Shown here: positions 5,150 to 47,808 of the stretch, piece by piece
How the letters are laid out: each line of letters starts with the position of its first letter
How positions within the stretch are numbered: the stretch's first letter is position 1
DNA from: Flavobacterium sp. Leaf82
GTDB taxonomy: Bacteria > Bacteroidota > Bacteroidia > Flavobacteriales > Flavobacteriaceae
Direction: 5' to 3'
DNA: 64,000 bases
Assembly (NCBI RefSeq): GCF_001422725.1
Contig: NZ_LMMA01000001.1
Coordinates: 684,691 to 748,690, forward strand
The notes under the pieces: model-generated
What the model was told of the DNA's origin: nothing
Databases searched by the model: none
Seen by the model: only the letters and a program-made list of their open reading frames with translations
Program-made: the position numbers and the translations under genes

Positions 5150-6466
5150 TTAGTATCTGTAGTATTCTGGTTTGAAAGGACCTTCAACCGGAACACCAAT
5201 ATAAGCAGCCTGATCGTCACGTAAAGTTTCCAATTCAACTCCTAATTTAGCTAAGTGCAAAGCAGCAACTTTTTCATCTAAATGTTTAGGTAACATATAA
5301 ACGTCATTGTTGTAAGCAGCGCTGTTTTTCCATAATTCGATTTGTGCCAGAGTTTGGTTTGTAAATGAGTTACTCATTACAAAACTTGGGTGACCTGTAG
5401 CACAACCAAGGTTTACTAAACGACCTTCAGCAAGAATGATGATATCTTTTCCAGCGATAGTATATTTGTCAACCTGAGGTTTGATTTCGATTTTAGATGC
5501 ACCGTGGTTTTTGTTCAACCAAGCCATATCAATTTCGTTATCAAAGTGTCCGATGTTACAAACAACAGTTTTGTCTTTCATTTGCTCGAAGTGCTCTCCA
5601 AGAACGATATCTTTATTTCCAGTAGTTGTAATGATGATATCAGCATTAGCAATTACAGTATTTAATTTTTTAACTTCGTAACCGTCCATTGCAGCTTGTA
5701 AAGCACAAATTGGGTCAATTTCAGTGACAGTTACAATAGATCCTGCACCTCTGAAAGAAGCAGCAGTTCCTTTTCCAACATCACCATATCCACAAACGAT
5801 AACTCTTTTTCCAGCTAACATTAAGTCAGTTGCACGACGTACAGCATCTACAGCAGATTCTTTACAACCGTATTTGTTATCAAATTTAGATTTAGTAACA
5901 GAGTCATTAATGTTGATTGCAGGCATTGGTAAAGTTCCGGCTTTTACTCTTTCGTAAAGTCTGTGAACTCCAGTTGTAGTTTCTTCAGACAATCCTTTGA
6001 TTCCAGGAACCAATTCAGGGAAACGGTCAATAACCATATTTGTTAAATCTCCACCATCATCAAGAATCATGTTCAATGGTTTTCTGTCTTCACCAAAGAA
6101 TAAAGTTTGCTCAATACACCAGTCAAATGATTGCTCATCTAAACCTTTCCAGGCATAAACCTGAATTCCTGCAGCAGCAATAGCAGCAGCAGCCTGATCC
6201 TGAGTAGAGAAAATGTTACAAGAAGACCAGGTAACCTCTGCACCAAGAGCGATTAAAGTTTCGATTAAAACTGCAGTCTGGATCGTCATGTGTAAACATC
6301 CAGCGATACGAGCACCTGCAAGAGGTTGTTCGTCTTTATATTCAGCGCGAAGAGCCATTAAACCTGGCATTTCAGCTTCAGCTAATTCAATTTCTTTTCT
6401 TCCCCAAGCCGCTAGAGAGATGTCTTTTACTTTGAAAGCCACAAAAGGCGTAGTTGTAGTACTCAT
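5150..6466 (-). CDS. ahcY: Adenosylhomocysteinase (S-adenosyl-L-homocysteine hydrolase)
   Basis: 438 residues, the usual length. It hydrolyses S-adenosylhomocysteine to homocysteine and adenosine in the methyl cycle, using tightly bound NAD. Visible: the NAD-binding loop [22 protein letters not shown] with the conserved substrate-site residues, GHFDNEIDM, and the family C-terminus PFKPEYYRY. It appears monocistronic, with a terminator at 5050-5083 and a TAAATTTG -7 element upstream at 6498-6505. Confidence 0.97.
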
Positions 6467-40265: not shown

Positions 40266-43106
40266 TTAATGCGCTGCCAGCCAATCCAGACCTAAACCAA
40301 GTTCTACATCTAAAGGAACACTCATCATAAATGCGTTTTCCATTTCATGTTTAATCATAGGTTGGATTTTTTCGAGTTCGTCATTATGAACATCGAACAC
40401 AAGCTCATCATGAACCTGAAGTAACATTCTGGATTTCCAGTTTTCTTCTTTTAGTTTTTTATGAATGTTGATCATTGCGATTTTAATAACATCGGCAGCA
40501 CTTCCCTGAATCGGTGCGTTTACAGCATTTCTTTCGGCAGCACTACGAACTACAGCATTTGCAGAGTTGATGTCTTTTAAATATCTACGACGTCCAAGGA
40601 TAGTTTGTACATATCCTTTTTCGCGGGCAAATTCTATTTGCTCATTAATATAAGATCTTAATCTTGGATATGTTTTGTAATACGCTTCGATCAAAGCAGC
40701 ACTTTCGCTACGTGATAATGAAGTTTGATTGCTTAGTCCAAAAGCAGAAACACCGTAAATAATACCAAAGTTTACTGTTTTAGCATTACTTCTTTGTTCG
40801 CGTGAAACTTCTTCTAAAGGAACATCAAATACTTTTGCAGCGGTTGCTTTATGAATGTCTTCTCCGTTCTGGAAAGCGGCAATCATGTTTTCTTCGCCAC
40901 TTAATGCGGCAATAATTCTTAATTCTATTTGCGAGTAATCGGCAGATATTAAAGTATGGTTTTCATCGCGGGCAACAAATGCCTTACGAATCTGACGGCC
41001 TCTTTCTGTACGAATTGGAATATTTTGCAAGTTCGGATTATTAGAACTCAAACGGCCTGTAGCCGCAACAGTTTGCATATAATCCGTATGAACGCGTAAA
41101 GTCTTTTTGTCTACTTGTTCCGGCAAAGCAAGGATATAAGTGCTTTGCAATTTTACCATTTGACGCCAATCCAGAATTTGTTTTACAATTGGGTTGTCAT
41201 TTGCTAAATATGTCAAAACTTCTTCGCCAGTTGCATATTGACCCGTTTTGGTTTTCTTTTGTTTTGCTCCGCCAATTTTTAGTTTATCAAATAAGATATC
41301 TCCTAATTGTTTTGGAGAAGCCAGATTGAATTTTTCTCCTGCAGTTTCGTATATTTTTTCTTCCAGAGATTTAATCTCGATTTCCATTTCTTTAGACATT
41401 ATGCTTAAAAACTCAACATCTAAACGAATTCCTTCGGTTTCCATATCGGCCAAAACACTAACTAACGGAATTTCGATTTCATCGAATAATTTTTTAGTCT
41501 CGGTTTTGTCTAATTCAGCAGTAAAAATCTCTTTTAATTGTAATGTAATATCGGCATCTTCGGCAGCATATTCCTTGATTTCTTCAAGTGCAACGTCGCG
41601 CATTGTGAGTTGGTTTTTTCCCTTTTTACCAATTAAAGTTTCAATTGATTTTGGAGAATACTTCAAATAGGTTTCGGCTAAAATATCCATATTATGACGC
41701 ATATCCGGATTGATTAGATAATGCGCAATCATGGTGTCAAAAAGCTTTCCTTTTACGACAACTCCATAATTAGAAAGGATTTTTAGGTCATATTTTAAGT
41801 TCTGACCAATTTTTTCGATGTTTTCATTCTCAAAAAACGGCTTGAACTTATCTACTAAAGTCTGAGCTTCTTCCTGGCTTTCCGGAAACGGAACGTAAAA
41901 TGCTTTTCCTTTTTCATAAGCAAAAGACATTCCAACCAATTCAGCATGCAAAGCATCCAGACCAGTAGTTTCAGTGTCAAAGCAAACAGAAGTCTGTTTT
42001 TGTAAATTTTGTAACAATAATTTAATTCCTAAATCACCTTCTACAGCTTGATAGGAGTGAGGTGTGTTTTCTAAGGTATTATAAAACGAAGTTCTTTCTT
42101 CGGTATTTTCATCTATAGTTGCACCGCCGCCAAAAAGATCAAATTGATCTTCGTTTTTAGGTTGTGGTTTTTTGTATAATTTGGCTTCATCACCTTTATT
42201 GGCTAATTCGTTTCCACCACCAAATTTAAACAGATTATCAAATTGTTCTGCCATTCTTCTAAATTCCAATTCCTGAAAAATAGCATCTGTCTTTTCGATA
42301 TCAGGACGTGAAAGTTCATAATCATTTTCATTAAAAACAACATCGCAATCACATATAATAGTAGCCAGTTTTTTAGATAAAATACCTTTTTCTTTATTGG
42401 CTTCGATATTCTCTTTCATTTTGCCTTTTAGTAAATGGGTATTTTCTAAAAGATTTTCCATCGAACCAAATTCTTTCAAAAACTTTTTGGCAGTTACTTC
42501 ACCAACTCCTGGTAATCCCGGAATATTGTCGACAGCATCTCCCATCATTCCAAGAAAATCAATTACTTGTTCCGGTTTTTCGATTTCGAATTTTGCCAAA
42601 ACTTCTGGAACTCCCCAGATTTCTATACCATTTCCCATTCGGGCTGGCTTATACATAAAGATATTTTCAGACACTAATTGTGCAAAATCCTTGTCCGGAG
42701 TCACCATAAAAACTTTGTAGTTTTCTTTTTCGGCTTGTTTCGCAATTGTTCCAATCAAATCATCGGCTTCACAGCCTTCTATTTCGATAATAGGAATATG
42801 CATTGCTCTTAATAAATCCTGTATATAAGGTATAGCAATTTTAATTGCTTCTGGAGTAGCATCCCGATTGGCTTTGTATTCAACAAACATTTCAGTTCTT
42901 ACATGGCTTCCTCCTTTATCAAAAGCTACAGCCAAATGGTCTGGTTTTTCACGTTTAATAACATCCAAAAGCGAATTCATGAATCCCATAATCGCTGATG
43001 TATCCATTCCTTTAGAGTTAATTCGCGGATTTTTTATAAAGGCATAATAACCACGAAAAATTAAAGCGTAAGCATCGAGAAGAAAAAGACGTTTTTGAGT
43101 TGACAT
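40266..43106 (-). CDS. polA: DNA polymerase I
   Basis: 946 residues with all three domains. 5'-nuclease at 1 to about 290 (AFDKGGSHVRTEMFVEYKANRDATP, TPDKDFAQLV, GLPGVGEVTAKKFL). 3'-5' exonuclease with the active DTETTGL motif at about 370-560. Polymerase at about 570-946 (SADYSQIELRIIAALSGE, RSNAKTVNFGIIYGVSAFGL, QVHDELVFDV). The acidic proofreading residues are present, so proofreading is likely active. Monocistronic, with a TAAATTTG -7 element at 43177-43184. Confidence 0.97.
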   Translation of the reverse strand: MSTQKRLFLLDAYALIFRGYYAFIKNPRINSKGMDTSAIMGFMNSLLDVIKREKPDHLAVAFDKGGSHVRTEMFVEYKANRDATPEAIKIAIPYIQDLLRAMHIPIIEIEGCEADDLIGTIAKQAEKENYKVFMVTPDKDFAQLVSENIFMYKPARMGNGIEIWGVPEVLAKFEIEKPEQVIDFLGMMGDAVDNIPGLPGVGEVTAKKFLKEFGSMENLLENTHLLKGKMKENIEANKEKGILSKKLATIICDCDVVFNENDYELSRPDIEKTDAIFQELEFRRMAEQFDNLFKFGGGNELANKGDEAKLYKKPQPKNEDQFDLFGGGATIDENTEERTSFYNTLENTPHSYQAVEGDLGIKLLLQNLQKQTSVCFDTETTGLDALHAELVGMSFAYEKGKAFYVPFPESQEEAQTLVDKFKPFFENENIEKIGQNLKYDLKILSNYGVVVKGKLFDTMIAHYLINPDMRHNMDILAETYLKYSPKSIETLIGKKGKNQLTMRDVALEEIKEYAAEDADITLQLKEIFTAELDKTETKKLFDEIEIPLVSVLADMETEGIRLDVEFLSIMSKEMEIEIKSLEEKIYETAGEKFNLASPKQLGDILFDKLKIGGAKQKKTKTGQYATGEEVLTYLANDNPIVKQILDWRQMVKLQSTYILALPEQVDKKTLRVHTDYMQTVAATGRLSSNNPNLQNIPIRTERGRQIRKAFVARDENHTLISADYSQIELRIIAALSGEENMIAAFQNGEDIHKATAAKVFDVPLEEVSREQRSNAKTVNFGIIYGVSAFGLSNQTSLSRSESAALIEAYYKTYPRLRSYINEQIEFAREKGYVQTILGRRRYLKDINSANAVVRSAAERNAVNAPIQGSAADVIKIAMINIHKKLKEENWKSRMLLQVHDELVFDVHNDELEKIQPMIKHEMENAFMMSVPLDVELGLGLDWLAAH

Positions 43107-43210
43107 AAAAAAAAATATTAGTGTGTAAAAATAAACAATTGGGTTTTAAAAATGATTCGGTTCTGAAAAATAAACGCAAATTTAAAATGAGATTGGTTTT
43201 CTATCCTAAT

Positions 43211-43323
43211 ATGTAGAGGCGCACAGCAGTACGTCTATGGTTTAGGAGAATTTTAGTATGATAAGAGTTAAATTATTTGTTTGTATCCTAATAAAAGACG
43301 CATTGCTGTGCGCCTTACATTGT
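43211..43323. repeat. Inverted pair of GCGCACAGCAG palindromes
   Basis: TGTAGAGGCGCACAGCAG (43212-43229) and CTGCTGTGCGCCTTACA-like sequence (43303-43321, one change in the central part) face each other. ATCCTAATA is repeated next to both arms. Same family as 364-383. Fills the gap before the small-protein promoter. Confidence 0.7.
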
Positions 43324-43379
43324 AATAGAAAGCACATCAATAGTTAATGTCAAGTTAAAATATTTAGCGCCAGGGATTT

Positions 43380-43414
43380 CTTCATTTTGTCTTCATATTA
43401 CAGAGGTACATTTG
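43380..43414 (+). promoter_or_regulatory. Small-protein promoter 1 with CTTCAT-N5-CTTCAT direct repeat
   Basis: CTTCAT at 43380-43385 and again at 43391-43396 (11-bp period, one helical turn). TTG (43387-43389), N17, TACATTTG (43407-43414) form a consensus promoter, so the repeat straddles the -33 element. Spacing is identical to 46127-46161. A candidate OmpR/PhoB-type response regulator site. Confidence 0.72.
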
Positions 43415-43456
43415 ATCTGTAAAATAAAAGGTATTAATTTTTAAATAGTAGAAATC

Positions 43457-43654
43457 ATGAGAAATTTATTGATGTTATTAGTAGCAGTTTTAGGTACAAG
43501 TGTGATGGTAAGTGCTTTTCCTGCAAAAGATGTTAAAGCAGCTCCTGCAAAAGAAGTTAAAGCGACAAAACACCCAAAAACCAAATCTGATAAAAAAGTG
43601 AAATCAGAAAAAAGCGAAGCTACAAAAGTAGAGAGTGCTAAAGTAAAAAAATAA
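43457..43654 (+). CDS. Small exported Lys/Ala-rich protein, paralogue 1
   Basis: 65 residues. A signal peptide (MRNLLMLLVAVLGTSVMVSA) is followed by about 45 residues made mostly of Lys, Ala, Glu, Val, Ser and Thr (AKEVKATKHPKTKSDKKVKS), with no Cys or Trp. Probably disordered and strongly basic in the periplasm. Composition recalls the enterobacterial acid-shock protein Asr, but homology is not claimed. The first of a tandem pair; the promoter carries the CTTCAT direct repeat. Confidence 0.75.
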   Translation: MRNLLMLLVAVLGTSVMVSAFPAKDVKAAPAKEVKATKHPKTKSDKKVKSEKSEATKVESAKVKK

Positions 43655-43704
43655 GAAAAGGTTGTTGTAAAATAAAAGGTTAATTAATTTAAAATTTAAA
43701 AATC

Positions 43705-43887
43705 ATGAAAAATTTATTGATGTTATTAGTAGCAGTTTTAGGAACAACTGCAATGGTGAGTGCACAAACAACTCCAACTCAGGCTGCCCCTGCAAAAGAA
43801 GTTAAAGCTACAAAACACCACAAAAACAAAGGAGATAAAAAAGAAAAAGCGGAGGCCCCAAAAGCAGAAGCGACTAAAATGAAATAA
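43705..43887 (+). CDS. Small exported Lys/Ala-rich protein, paralogue 2
   Basis: 60 residues. The signal peptide MKNLLMLLVAVLGTTAMVSAQ is nearly identical, also at DNA level, to that of the gene 50 bp upstream. The mature part has AAPAKEVKATKHHKNKGDKKEK and is Lys/Ala/Glu-rich. The 5' untranslated segments of both genes share TGTAAAATAAAAGGT, indicating a tandem duplication. No separate promoter is seen, so it is probably cotranscribed with paralogue 1. Confidence 0.75.
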   Translation: MKNLLMLLVAVLGTTAMVSAQTTPTQAAPAKEVKATKHHKNKGDKKEKAEAPKAEATKMK

Positions 43888-43965
43888 TAAAAGTTGGTTT
43901 TGTTTTGCTTTCAAAGAATTGTAAAGGAGGCAAAACAGAAGTAATGATTATTAGAATGCAGATGG

Positions 43966-43999
43966 AGAAAGCTGGTAAAGAAATTTATCAGCTTTTTTT
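43966..43999 (+). terminator. Terminator of the small-protein pair
   Basis: AAAGCTGGTAAA, GAAA, TTTATCAGCTTT followed by TTTT (one G-T pair). Nearly the same sequence terminates the third paralogue at 46465-46497. Confidence 0.85.
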
Positions 44000-44076
44000 G
44001 ATTCGTTAATTTTTTAATAATGCGCAATAATTTTTTTTAGAATTGCTTAAATTTATTTGCGCTTAAACGCTGTATT

Positions 44077-44751
44077 ATGAATATTCTAATTGTTGAAGAT
44101 AATAAGGAGCTTGCTGTTGAAGTTTATGATTTTTTATGCAACACAGGTTACGTTTGCAAGATTGCCCATACTTGCAGCGATGCTCTTGAAGAAGTGAATA
44201 GTAACGATTATGATGCGATGCTTCTTGATCTTGGTTTGCCTGACGGAGATGGATTTGAGGTTTTAAAAACGGTTCGTAAATCAAAGTCAAAAATGGCCGT
44301 TATTGTACTTACGGCACGAGGCGAATTAGATGACAGGATAAATGGTTTGCATCTTGGTGCAGATGATTATTTGACAAAACCTTTTGCGCTGACAGAACTT
44401 AGCGCACGATTATTTGCTGTAATTCGCAGGATTCATGGATTTACTTTGAATAGTTTGAGTATTCACGGATTTTTATTGCAGCTTCAGGATTATAAAGTGA
44501 GTTATAGCGAAACACCTATTAGTCTTACCAAAAAAGAATTTGATATTTTTCAATATCTGGTTTTAAATAAAAACAGGGTAATTACGAGATTGCAATTGAC
44601 AGAGCATATCTGGGGAGACATTCTGGAAGTGAATTCAGACTCTAATTTTATTGATGTTCATGTTCGAAATCTTCGAAAAAAACTGGACAAACATACCGCA
44701 ATAGAGTGGTTCGAAACAGTAAGAAATGTTGGTTATCGTATAAATGAGTAA
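44077..44751 (+). CDS. OmpR/PhoB-family response regulator
   Basis: 224 residues. The receiver domain has acidic E7/D8 in LIVEDN, phosphoacceptor D51 in MLLDLGLPDGDG, T79 and K101 (YLTKPF). The C-terminal winged helix has LTKKEFDIFQYLVLNKNRVITRLQLTEHIWG and VHVRNLRKKLD. It pairs with the kinase 9 bp downstream. Flanked by three small Lys-rich exported protein genes, two of whose promoters share an 11-bp-period direct repeat of the type this family binds. Confidence 0.95.
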   Translation: MNILIVEDNKELAVEVYDFLCNTGYVCKIAHTCSDALEEVNSNDYDAMLLDLGLPDGDGFEVLKTVRKSKSKMAVIVLTARGELDDRINGLHLGADDYLTKPFALTELSARLFAVIRRIHGFTLNSLSIHGFLLQLQDYKVSYSETPISLTKKEFDIFQYLVLNKNRVITRLQLTEHIWGDILEVNSDSNFIDVHVRNLRKKLDKHTAIEWFETVRNVGYRINE

Positions 44752-44760
44752 ACAAATATT

Positions 44761-46086
44761 GTGAAGATAAAACATCAACTGGCGATTTTTAATGCACTAA
44801 CAAGATTGTTGGTAATTTTAGTATTATGGCTTATGTTGCCAATATTGGTCGAAAATGTTGTTTACAGACATATTAATAATGGATTGCTGGAGAAAAAGCA
44901 AAAATTTATTGAGCATTTAGATCAAAATGAAATTAATGATTTTATCGAAAACTCAGATGATTCGACAGAAACATATTCGCAGTTTTCTACACTGCACAGT
45001 GAGTTTCTGGTGCTTTCGAAATCTCCTGTAAAAGCCAATCAAAAAAAAGCTGTTTTTAATAATGAATACCGCATTATCGAAGGTGAAGAAAATGAATACA
45101 GAATTCTTCAATATCATTTTATTTACGAAAATCAAGGTTATCAACTCGAAATAGGGAGTAGTCTTAGTGAGGTAAATGATCTTACTTTTATAATCAGGTT
45201 TTTTATTATAATTGTATTTGTGGTCATATTATTCATAACTTTTCTGGCAGATACTTTTTACATAGAATACCTGCTGAAGCCTTTTTATAAAATCATTGAT
45301 ACAAAAATAAGGCGTGTTAACGAACCTGAAGCTTTTGATCATACACCAATAAAGGCCAGATCGAGGGATTTTAGGGAACTAGATTTTGTTTTAAATCAAA
45401 TGATGGATCGTATCACGGAGCTTTTTAAAAAAGAAAAACAATTCATATCAAATGTTTCTCATGAATTGCTTACACCAATTGCCTTACTTAAAAATAAGTT
45501 CGAGAACCTGCTTCAAAACGATTCGTTAGATGATAATGCTTTTGATAAAATTGCAGGTTCGTTAAGAACATTGGATATGCTGAAAAAAATAATCAATAAT
45601 TTATTGTTGATTTCCAGAATCGAAAATAATCAATACGAGGCAAATGAGAATATAAATTTTCATGAGATTATTACTGATCTGCAAGAAGATTTACAAGATC
45701 GTATTGATGATAGGGAAATTCGGTTTTTAAATAAAATGGATCATGATTTTACCTTTACAGGAAATAAAACGCTTATTCATATTCTGATTTATAATCTGGT
45801 TACCAATGCCATTAAATACAATAAACCAAAAGGAAGCATTGAAGTAGCAGACGGTGTTTTAGAAAACAATTATTTTATTTCTATAAAAGATTCCGGAATA
45901 GGAATGACTACTTCTCAAATTGAAAACATATTCAACAGATTCGCCAGAATTAGTTCAGATCAGGAAGGGCAGGGCTTAGGGCTTGCTATTGCAGCCAGTA
46001 TTGCTTCTTTTCATCATATTGAGATAAAAGTGGTTTCCCAGATAAACGAAGGAACAACCTTTATGTTATTGTTTCCTGAAGCCTAA
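44761..46086 (+). CDS. Sensor histidine kinase, partner of the upstream response regulator
   Basis: 441 residues starting at GTG. Membrane helices near 10-32 and 147-168 bracket a periplasmic sensor of about 115 residues with many Glu, Asp and Asn. H234 is in the H-box FISNVSHELLTPIALLKNKFE. HATPase motifs: NLVTNAIKYN, KDSGIGM, GQGLGLAIA. The acidic sensor could respond to cations or pH (inference). The stop is 40 bp before the next CTTCAT direct repeat. Confidence 0.93.
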   Translation: MKIKHQLAIFNALTRLLVILVLWLMLPILVENVVYRHINNGLLEKKQKFIEHLDQNEINDFIENSDDSTETYSQFSTLHSEFLVLSKSPVKANQKKAVFNNEYRIIEGEENEYRILQYHFIYENQGYQLEIGSSLSEVNDLTFIIRFFIIIVFVVILFITFLADTFYIEYLLKPFYKIIDTKIRRVNEPEAFDHTPIKARSRDFRELDFVLNQMMDRITELFKKEKQFISNVSHELLTPIALLKNKFENLLQNDSLDDNAFDKIAGSLRTLDMLKKIINNLLLISRIENNQYEANENINFHEIITDLQEDLQDRIDDREIRFLNKMDHDFTFTGNKTLIHILIYNLVTNAIKYNKPKGSIEVADGVLENNYFISIKDSGIGMTTSQIENIFNRFARISSDQEGQGLGLAIAASIASFHHIEIKVVSQINEGTTFMLLFPEA

Positions 46087-46126
46087 AAAATACAATTAAA
46101 AGTTAATTTTTTCAAAGTCGTATAAT

Positions 46127-46161
46127 CTTCATTTTGTCTTCATTTAACGAATATATCTTTG
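46127..46161 (+). promoter_or_regulatory. Small-protein promoter 2 with CTTCAT-N5-CTTCAT direct repeat
   Basis: CTTCAT at 46127-46132 and 46138-46143; TTG (46134-46136), N17, TATCTTTG (46154-46161). Repeat, -33 and -7 positions superimpose exactly on those at 43380-43414, while flanking DNA differs. Confidence 0.72.
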
Positions 46162-46206
46162 AGGTATAATAAATGAAAATAGTAATAATCATAAAAACTT
46201 CAAATC

Positions 46207-46395
46207 ATGAAAAAATTAGTAATGTTAGTAGTATTAGTTTTAGGAACAACTGGAATGGTAAACGCTCAGACTACTCCAGTTCAAACAACTCCTGTAAAAG
46301 AAGCTAAAGCGCCTAAGAAAGACAAAAAAGCAGATAAAAAAGCTAAAAAAGCCGAAGCTAAACCAGAAGCAGCTAAGCCAGAAGCTAAAAAATAA
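46207..46395 (+). CDS. Small exported Lys/Ala-rich protein, paralogue 3
   Basis: 62 residues. The signal peptide MKKLVMLVVLVLGTTGMVNAQ is followed by TTPVQTTPVKEAKAPKKDKK and a tail of Lys/Ala/Glu/Pro. Same architecture as the genes at 43457 and 43705, but more diverged. It stands on the other side of the two-component genes and has its own promoter with the same direct repeat. Confidence 0.75.
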   Translation: MKKLVMLVVLVLGTTGMVNAQTTPVQTTPVKEAKAPKKDKKADKKAKKAEAKPEAAKPEAKK

Positions 46396-46464
46396 AACAG
46401 CACATGTTTGTGAAGGCAAACCGTGTTGTGGATTATAAAGGTTTTAAAAAATTTGGTAGAGAAA

Positions 46465-46498
46465 AAGCTGGTAGAGAAATCTATCAGCTTTTTGTTTT
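46465..46498 (+). terminator. Terminator of small-protein paralogue 3
   Basis: AAAAGCTGGTAGA, GAAA, TCTATCAGCTTTTT. Close copy of the terminator at 43966. Confidence 0.82.
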
Positions 46499-46572
46499 AT
46501 TTCAGTTAAAATTTTGATAATAAAAAGCAATAAAAAATTCATTCTTTGTTACTTTGCTTAAAACTATAAATA

Positions 46573-47808
46573 ATGATCTTACGTTTTGTAATTCTGTGTG
46601 CTCTTTTTTTATTTATTGAGTTCTATTCTTATCAAGCCTTTCGTACCTTAGTAAAATTGAGATGGGTTTTGGTGAGTTATCAAATTATAAGTTTACTGCT
46701 TTTAATTTTTATCATTTACTCTTTTACACAATTTGATCGTTCTGTTGGACAGACCAAACAAACCATGTTTACAATGGGTTTGATGTTATTGGTATATGTT
46801 CCTAAAATAGTTTTGACGCTTGTGATGTTTGGTGAAGATATTTTTAGGATTGGAGCAAGTATTTTGAATTATTTCATGTATAATGTTCCAAGAAAAGACA
46901 TTATGCCGGACAGAAGAAAGTTTATTAGTCAAGTGGCATTAGGGTTGGCTGCCGTTCCTTTTTTATCATTGCTTTACGGAATTTTTGAAGGTAAGTATAA
47001 TTTTAAAGTTTTTAAGCAGACTATCTATTTTCCTGATTTACCGGATGCATTTGATGGTTTTAAAATTACTCAGATCTCAGACGTTCATAGCGGAAGTTTT
47101 GATAATCCGGATAAAATAAATTATGCCATTGATTTGATTAATGAGCAGGAAGCAGATATGATTTTGTTTACAGGCGATATTGTAAATACTCATGCCAAAG
47201 AAATGCATCCATGGCTGGAGACTTTCAATAGAATAAAAGAGTATAAATACGGAAAATTTTCAGTTTTAGGAAATCATGATTATGGCGAATATGTAACATG
47301 GCCTTCTGAAAAACAAAAAGACGAAAACTTTCAGGAAATAAAAAGCCTTTACGGGCAGATAGGTTTTGAGCTTTTGCTTAATGAACATACTTATATTCAA
47401 AAAGGCGATGATAAAATTGCTTTGATTGGAGTAGAGAATTGGGGTCAGAATTTTAAGAAAGCAGGAGATTTAAATAAAGCGTCTCAAAACGTGCATCAGG
47501 ATGATTTTAAGGTGTTGATGAGTCATGATCCGAGTCATTGGGAATATGAAATAAAAAACCACCCTAAAAACTTTCATTTGACTTTGTCAGGTCATACGCA
47601 TGGTATGCAATTTGGAATTGAAATTCCGGGATATTTCAAATGGAGTCTGGCTCAGTATATTTACAAACAATGGGCAGGTTTATATGAAAACGTTGGCCGT
47701 TATGTTTATGTAAATCGCGGATTTGGTTTTCATGCTTATCCCGGTAGAGTGGGTATTATGCCCGAAATTACAGTGATTGAACTAAAAAAAGGGAACAATG
47801 TGGCTTAA
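46573..47808 (+). CDS. Membrane-anchored metallophosphoesterase
   Basis: 411 residues. Three or four N-terminal membrane helices (residues 1-105) and a Tat-like DRRKFISQVALGLAAVPFL segment precede a calcineurin-like domain: QISDVHSG, FTGDIVN, LGNHDYGEY, MSHDPSHWEY, LSGHTHGMQFG. These supply the two-metal site. YaeI/LpxG-like enzymes of this build act on UDP-2,3-diacylglucosamine in lipid A synthesis, but the substrate here is not proven. Confidence 0.9.
   Translation: MILRFVILCALFLFIEFYSYQAFRTLVKLRWVLVSYQIISLLLLIFIIYSFTQFDRSVGQTKQTMFTMGLMLLVYVPKIVLTLVMFGEDIFRIGASILNYFMYNVPRKDIMPDRRKFISQVALGLAAVPFLSLLYGIFEGKYNFKVFKQTIYFPDLPDAFDGFKITQISDVHSGSFDNPDKINYAIDLINEQEADMILFTGDIVNTHAKEMHPWLETFNRIKEYKYGKFSVLGNHDYGEYVTWPSEKQKDENFQEIKSLYGQIGFELLLNEHTYIQKGDDKIALIGVENWGQNFKKAGDLNKASQNVHQDDFKVLMSHDPSHWEYEIKNHPKNFHLTLSGHTHGMQFGIEIPGYFKWSLAQYIYKQWAGLYENVGRYVYVNRGFGFHAYPGRVGIMPEITVIELKKGNNVA

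Follow-up and report, generated by a model that had tools for sequence, protein, structure and literature searches.

The locus examined here raises the question of why three tiny lysine-rich proteins are encoded on both sides of a two-component system, behind promoters that share one direct repeat. It lies within a 64,000-nt stretch of Flavobacterium sp. Leaf82 (GCF_001422725.1, NZ_LMMA01000001.1 positions 684,691-748,690, forward strand), hereafter the window, where two small genes, a response regulator gene, a histidine kinase gene and a third small gene follow one another on the plus strand between a polA-like gene and a metallophosphoesterase gene. The regulator and kinase pair likely switches the small proteins on, because the exact full site (CTTCAT-N5-CTTCAT-N10-TAnnTTTG) is present in all 51 kinase-bearing genomes sampled from the genus and in none of the 148 kinase-less ones, counts that relatedness makes non-independent though kinase identity spans 53-100%. 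We propose, at a probability of about 0.5, a dedicated PmrA-like two-component switch whose regulator is predicted to bind both boxes and to turn on small, disordered, lysine-rich and predicted-exported proteins that would serve as a disposable polycation of the envelope. Its elements, with protein lengths in amino acids (aa), are as follows.

43380..43396, plus strand: box 1, CTTCAT-N5-CTTCAT, through which the regulator is proposed to act on the upstream promoter, supported by conservation of the box in orthologs
43407..43414, plus strand: upstream promoter, -7 element TACATTTG, at a constant N10 from the box
43457..43654, plus strand: 65-aa Lys-rich small protein 1, with predicted export and disorder
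43705..43887, plus strand: 60-aa Lys-rich small protein 2, with predicted export and disorder
43965..43997, plus strand: terminator-like hairpin 3' of the small-gene pair, -17 kcal/mol, 91% identical to the hairpin at 46461
44077..44751, plus strand: 224-aa response regulator of OmpR/PmrA type, with PF00072 and PF00486 both above cut-off
44761..46086, plus strand: 441-aa membrane histidine kinase with a GTG start codon, PF00512 and PF02518 both above cut-off
46127..46143, plus strand: box 2, CTTCAT-N5-CTTCAT, through which the regulator is proposed to act on the downstream promoter, exact in 51/51 orthologous loci
46154..46161, plus strand: -7 element TATCTTTG of the downstream promoter
46207..46395, plus strand: 62-aa Lys-rich small protein 3, with predicted export and disorder
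46461..46493, plus strand: terminator-like hairpin 3' of small gene 3, -20 kcal/mol, reported by a consensus terminator scan

The paired boxes and their conservation

The repeat that the initial annotation had placed in both promoters (CTTCATTTTGTCTTCAT at 43380 and 46127) is indeed common to them and occurs nowhere else in the 5.67-Mb genome: its two copies, against a mean of 0.00 in 100 shuffles, both stand at promoters flanking the regulator and kinase pair, each 10 bp before TAnnTTTG. The full site has the same two exact matches, and the next best sites, with 2-3 mismatches, are at background level because sites at <=3 mismatches are no commoner than those of a reversed-pattern control (17 against 29 in this genome). 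In the F. johnsoniae -7 numbering, as given in the part of PMC6847099 drawn on here, the box spans about -39 to -23 and takes the place of a -33 element. The two cassettes are clearly paralogous, at 75% over 44 nt of promoter and 91% over 33 nt of hairpin. The near-identical terminators described earlier both fold; the consensus terminator scan reported the second hairpin and did not report the one at 43965, and an Rfam search of 43100-46700 gave no match.

At a threshold of E<=1e-60 the kinase was matched in 51 of 199 sampled same-genus genomes, with identities of 53-100%, and in a family-wide sample of 299 genomes the window's own genome alone passes E<=1e-80. All 51 loci were inspected (L003-L052 plus L106, the last from genome G164 and with its kinase frame split into two open reading frames, ORFs), and each holds the regulator at 71-100% identity. 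Full sites with one mismatch occur once each in three kinase-less genomes (G017, G087, G100), and the reversed-pattern control gives 5 matches in total at <=1 mismatch over the 199 genomes. A phylum sample of 395 genomes contains the regulator (E<=1e-52) in 35 and exact sites in 12, all of them same-genus genomes with the regulator at 77-100%; 21 further genomes hold sites with one mismatch alone.

Whether the box is kept before orthologous small genes had been set in advance as a test of its significance, and it is kept: the downstream box is exact in all 51 loci, and the upstream box is present at <=2 mismatches in 46, exactly so in 42. A small Lys-rich gene stands 3' of the downstream box in 49/51 loci by filter and in the remaining two by eye (L048, 59 aa; L106, 65 aa), and upstream small genes are found in 45/51, two in 18 loci and one in 27. 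Four loci (L042, L045, L049, L051) have neither box nor small gene upstream; L046 and L052 keep the upstream box, but before a PepSY-like protein with a signal-like start (16.6 and 26.7 bits against PF11396, below the 28.3 cut-off); L048 keeps the upstream small gene behind a box of altered spacing; and in L047 and L050 the upstream region has an additional box that no small gene immediately follows. At E<=1e-5 a profile built on the small proteins matches 57 of the 199 genomes; tightening to E<=1e-9 leaves 52, comprising every kinase-bearing genome and one of the 148 kinase-less ones, G137, whose same-family small Lys-rich protein (L318) has no box (<=3 mismatches), regulator or kinase in the 10 kb around it. 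Left uncounted were low-scoring profile matches inside open frames of ~700 aa (G035, G086, G092, G104 and a second match in G014) and other small proteins without a box (G160 and a second match in G156). The small ORFs behave as genes under coding constraint, because dN/dS is 0.31 and 0.28 over 33 loci.

In the aligned promoters the half-sites carry 1.95 bits in the 46 upstream promoters and 2.00 bits in the 51 downstream ones and the -7 element 1.97 and 2.00 bits, although sites were picked at <=2 mismatches, which favours the box; the downstream set needed no mismatches. The 5-bp spacer inside the box carries 1.42 and 1.41 bits, the 10-bp spacer from box to -7 element 0.88 and 0.93, and the flanks 0.79-1.00. 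The initial annotation had also given weight to a TTG and TAnnTTTG at the same offsets in both promoters. The spacing TTG-N17-TAnnTTTG is identical at the two window promoters, and the -7 element is near invariant in relatives, but the TTG between the repeats is not fixed, with G at that position in 61% of upstream and under 60% of downstream promoters.

A PmrA-like regulator as the candidate reader

The small genes flank an OmpR-type regulator and a kinase, as first described, and the Pfam domains of both are intact: receiver and winged-helix domains in the regulator and HisKA and HATPase in the kinase, all above cut-off. Together with invariant phospho-relay residues (phospho-acceptor D51, T79 and K101 in 23 regulators; H234 and the G-box residues in 35 kinases), these place the pair among OmpR/PhoB-type two-component systems. 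The best NCBIfam score of the regulator is to PmrA (NF007928), at 185.9 bits and below the cut-off of 330, so that it is not a member, and its score against PhoB (168.6 bits) is likewise below cut-off (296.2). The kinase resembles the PorY family most closely (NF052314, residues 3-423, 256.8 bits) but falls below that cut-off of 350 and has an OmpR-type partner encoded next door, and it is also no member of PmrB (NF008025, 130.6 bits, cut-off 314). Among solved structures, the relatives of the regulator are DrrD (1kgs) first and then PmrA/BasR (8jo2, 4s04).

The known target of PmrAB is a set of lipid A modification genes, and here the Flavobacterium system differs, its targets being small proteins predicted to be exported. 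The likeness to PmrAB (BasRS) lies in the OmpR-type regulator, in the two 6-bp half-sites set head to tail N5 apart, and in the reading head. PMC3973317, in the part drawn on here, describes PmrA half-sites CTTAAT and CCTAAG placed head to tail and eight DNA-contact residues taken from a docking model; by alignment, six of these eight modelled contacts are identical in the regulator, the other two being T187 (Ser189 here) and H195 (Arg197 here). Across the phylum, 23 orthologs show almost no change in the recognition helix, DSN-[FY]-[IV]-D-[VA]-H-[VI]-[RK]-N-[LI]-R-[KN]-KL. A PmrA box is defined as CTTAAG/NTTAAT or CTTAAT/CCTAAG, N5 apart; the Flavobacterium box has the same layout with the half-site CTTCAT, one base off CTTAAT, and is not a member, though it appears to work like one. 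Judged from their sequences, both the box and the reading head are of the PmrA kind with slight departures from it. The Pho box offers a second parallel, as an 11-bp-period direct repeat standing 10 bp before the -10 element in place of -35, and the box considered here is an 11-bp-period direct repeat standing 10 bp before the -7 element in place of -33. The system differs from PhoB in that its regulator scores below the PhoB cut-off and no phosphate gene was seen with the box.

Co-occurrence and the PmrA-like contact residues strongly support the link between box and regulator that had been suggested, and the best-supported step of the mechanism is that the regulator would read the box and activate from the -33 position. 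In the sequence of events we propose, the kinase would read an envelope signal through its periplasmic domain, the phosphorylated regulator would occupy the region from about -39 to -23, where a -33 element would otherwise lie, as head-to-tail dimers, and these would recruit RNA polymerase to switch the small genes on. Once exported, the disordered basic proteins might cover acidic surfaces of the envelope or act as holdases for unfolded proteins, as reported for Asr in E. coli; the least secure step is that an exported polycation gives protection.

The circuit is undescribed in the open-licence PMC literature searched, a scope that does not extend to subscription papers, and its parts are of known kinds while their pairing, the box and the breadth look new. 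Flavobacterium johnsoniae very probably carries the system, and since that species is genetically tractable, a sharply defined circuit of regulator, box and target in Bacteroidota would be open to study. Disordered, predicted-exported proteins missed by the Pfam and NCBIfam libraries are here tied to one signal pathway, so that their function could be tested through the deletion of a few genes. Should the polycation proposal be true, it would represent a protein-based route to changing envelope charge.

What the small proteins may do

The ORFs and translations bear out that all three small proteins combine near-identical N-termini with Lys-rich tails. Across 112 small proteins collected by filter, the mature part is 23-38% Lys with a net charge of +5 to +14, FoldIndex is negative in every one and Cys is absent from all, and an identity as Cys-rich metal peptides was rejected on the last ground. 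The AlphaFold model of small protein 3 shows one N-terminal helix followed by coil, with a mean pLDDT (predicted local distance difference test score) of 60. The signal-like N-termini suggest that the proteins reach the periplasm. None of the three has a family above cut-off in Pfam or NCBIfam, and some relatives carry the name acid shock protein in UniRef. E. coli Asr is controlled by RstBA, and the Flavobacterium genes differ in occurring as several copies that flank their own regulator, with another box and another kinase and with no Asr family match. The likeness to Asr that had been drawn from composition stands in part: small size, basic charge, disorder and predicted export are shared, in composition only, but no Asr family is matched in Pfam. 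Asr is a disordered chaperone in E. coli, according to the part of PMC10746267 drawn on here, and by analogy we favour an envelope shield or holdase role; we infer that the locus may be an envelope-stress unit.

Across the 199 genomes a single exact site is unlinked, and it stands ~32 bp before a gene for an MprF-type lysyl-phosphatidylglycerol synthase in G094 (L094, G094:C57, near 2490, minus strand), whose product scores 515 bits against an NCBIfam cut-off of 600. MprF adds lysine charge to the envelope, a theme it would share with the small proteins, although MprF is a lipid enzyme and is boxed in one genome; this single case points towards surface charge.

A scan of an 84,980-species collection for exact sites gave at least 119 stretches, all 119 of which were analysed, some records giving several; grouped by the taxon of the database record, they comprise 61 from Flavobacteriaceae, 51 from other Bacteroidota and 7 from other phyla, and the counts that follow hold among these matches listed. 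A signal-like start was called by a regular expression, not a trained predictor, in an ORF required within 130 bp of the box. By this measure, the 91 boxes of Flavobacteriaceae are followed by a signal-like ORF in 88 cases, of low complexity in 87, and have the regulator in the stretch in 80. Of 58 boxes in other Bacteroidota, 49 are followed by a signal-like ORF, 38 of them of low complexity, against 11.8% and 4.4% at 5,596 positions drawn at random from the same 51 stretches and 13.3% and 5.4% at 315 box-less TAnnTTTG elements. A regulator at least 45% identical lies in the stretch of 22 of these 58 boxes, always on the same strand; it is downstream of the box in 21 and 1.3-2.8 kb after it in 19, so that records of Pontibacter, Rufibacter, Chitinophaga, Adhaeribacter and Bacteroidales type share the layout of box, low-complexity protein and regulator. 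The seven stretches from other phyla yield a signal-like ORF in 2, low complexity in 1 and the regulator in 0. In L183 and L208 the box stands ~118 bp directly before the regulator gene, which fits the expectation for autoregulation. The boxed proteins of other Bacteroidota vary, from K/A/E-rich proteins of ~235-445 aa and Q/T/E/K-rich repeats to Lys-rich proteins of 56-75 aa, the last with no regulator in the stretch. The locus had been taken for a compact unit; the box does track the kinase within the genus, but the circuit is wider and recurs in other Bacteroidota with other predicted exported targets.

Several of these and other observations weigh against a dedicated switch for a disposable envelope polycation. 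Among the matches listed, the targets in Chitinophaga have hardly any basic excess (net +3 to +4) and a positive FoldIndex, and some boxes stand before acidic lipoproteins or DUF4382 proteins, so that a polycation cannot be the common property of the targets. Of 13 loci from other families, with regulators at 45-62% identity, none has the exact box and L265 alone has a convincing box with 2 mismatches, while 6 of the 13 encode, close to the regulator, a Lys-rich protein whose start is signal-like. No Asr family appears among the Pfam and NCBIfam matches of the three small proteins at E 0.1, MprF was not found at E<=1e-80 in 11 other genomes tested, and the top 50 Foldseek hits of the kinase model are kinase structures or cores alone, with nothing on the sensor. 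A near-box, CTTCAT-N5-ATTCAT-N10-TAnnTTTG, also lies just before kdsA (G000:C32:440215, L055 and L103; relatives L095, L105 and L109), with 2 mismatches in the window genome and similar 1-mismatch sequences in 15 other genomes; the gene is identified by family match for G006 and by likeness to the G006 gene for G000, G158 and G100. It was set aside as a regulon member because the near-box is present in the kinase-less G100 as well, and perhaps another OmpR-type regulator reads it.

A broader reading is tentative: a Bacteroidota-wide dedicated switch, made up of the PmrA-like regulator, its kinase and the promoter with CTTCAT-N5-CTTCAT and -7 element, whose conserved output would be a physical property and not one protein family, that of exported, low-complexity, disordered proteins, with the lysine polycations of Flavobacterium as the protein counterpart of the cationic lipid A of PmrAB.

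CpxP acts on CpxA as a feedback partner, and the same switch could be combined with a comparable arrangement in which the small basic proteins are ligands that damp or prime the kinase through its periplasmic domain. The small genes flank and co-occur with the kinase, and the predicted sensor stretch is mildly acidic (median net charge -4 in 35 kinases), but that charge ranges from -12 to +2, the two or three copies and a strong-looking promoter suggest a bulk product over a ligand, and regulator orthologs at 61-62% identity occur without a small gene found nearby, which together make feedback improbable.

We consider it similarly unlikely that, under the same switch, the Lys/His-rich proteins bind metal ions, phosphate polymers or polysaccharide sensed by the kinase. 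His runs do occur in some copies, and an uncultured relative (L195) has a boxed 60-aa His/Asp/Lys-rich protein with a signal-like start, a possible metal binder; the 112 proteins, however, contain no Cys, His forms no conserved column in the profile, and no family is matched.

That the shared repeat is a remnant of duplication of a promoter-gene-terminator cassette, read by another regulator or by none, would account for the paralogy of the cassettes (75% and 91%) but is very improbable, given that half-sites and -7 element stay fixed across kinase identities of 53-100% while the spacers drift, that exact sites are absent where the kinase is absent, and that 22/58 listed boxes in other Bacteroidota share the same regulator type, all on the same strand.

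Near-boxes and neighbouring features

Some further sites were recorded beside the main set. A site with one mismatch precedes similar PepSY-like genes in G015, G042 and G161; the G015 protein scores 24.0 bits in Pfam, below cut-off, and those of G042 and G161 have no NCBIfam match. In L100 and L102, near 2500, a near-box lies before a phosphoglycerol transferase or lipoteichoic acid (LTA)-synthase-like gene that is divergent from another response regulator gene. Among the listed matches, three records of Bacteroidales type (L129, L156, L226) have the box before a related acidic lipoprotein of ~300 aa (NESYA..VFDEIEDIGDEA), for which L129 shows no Pfam family. Around distant regulator orthologs (L263, L264, L266, L270, L271), a Lys-rich signal-like protein of 105-114 aa (KEVAKAKKQPKPEK-like) is encoded nearby, with no CTTCAT box.

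The features bordering the locus in the window are as follows.

40266-43106, minus strand: DNA polymerase I-like gene (polA), named from its sequence
43217-43315: inverted repeat whose 20-nt arms are 90% complementary and 59 nt apart
46573-47808: metallophosphoesterase gene

The inverted repeat in the gap between polA and box 1 is possibly a REP-like (repetitive extragenic palindromic) element.

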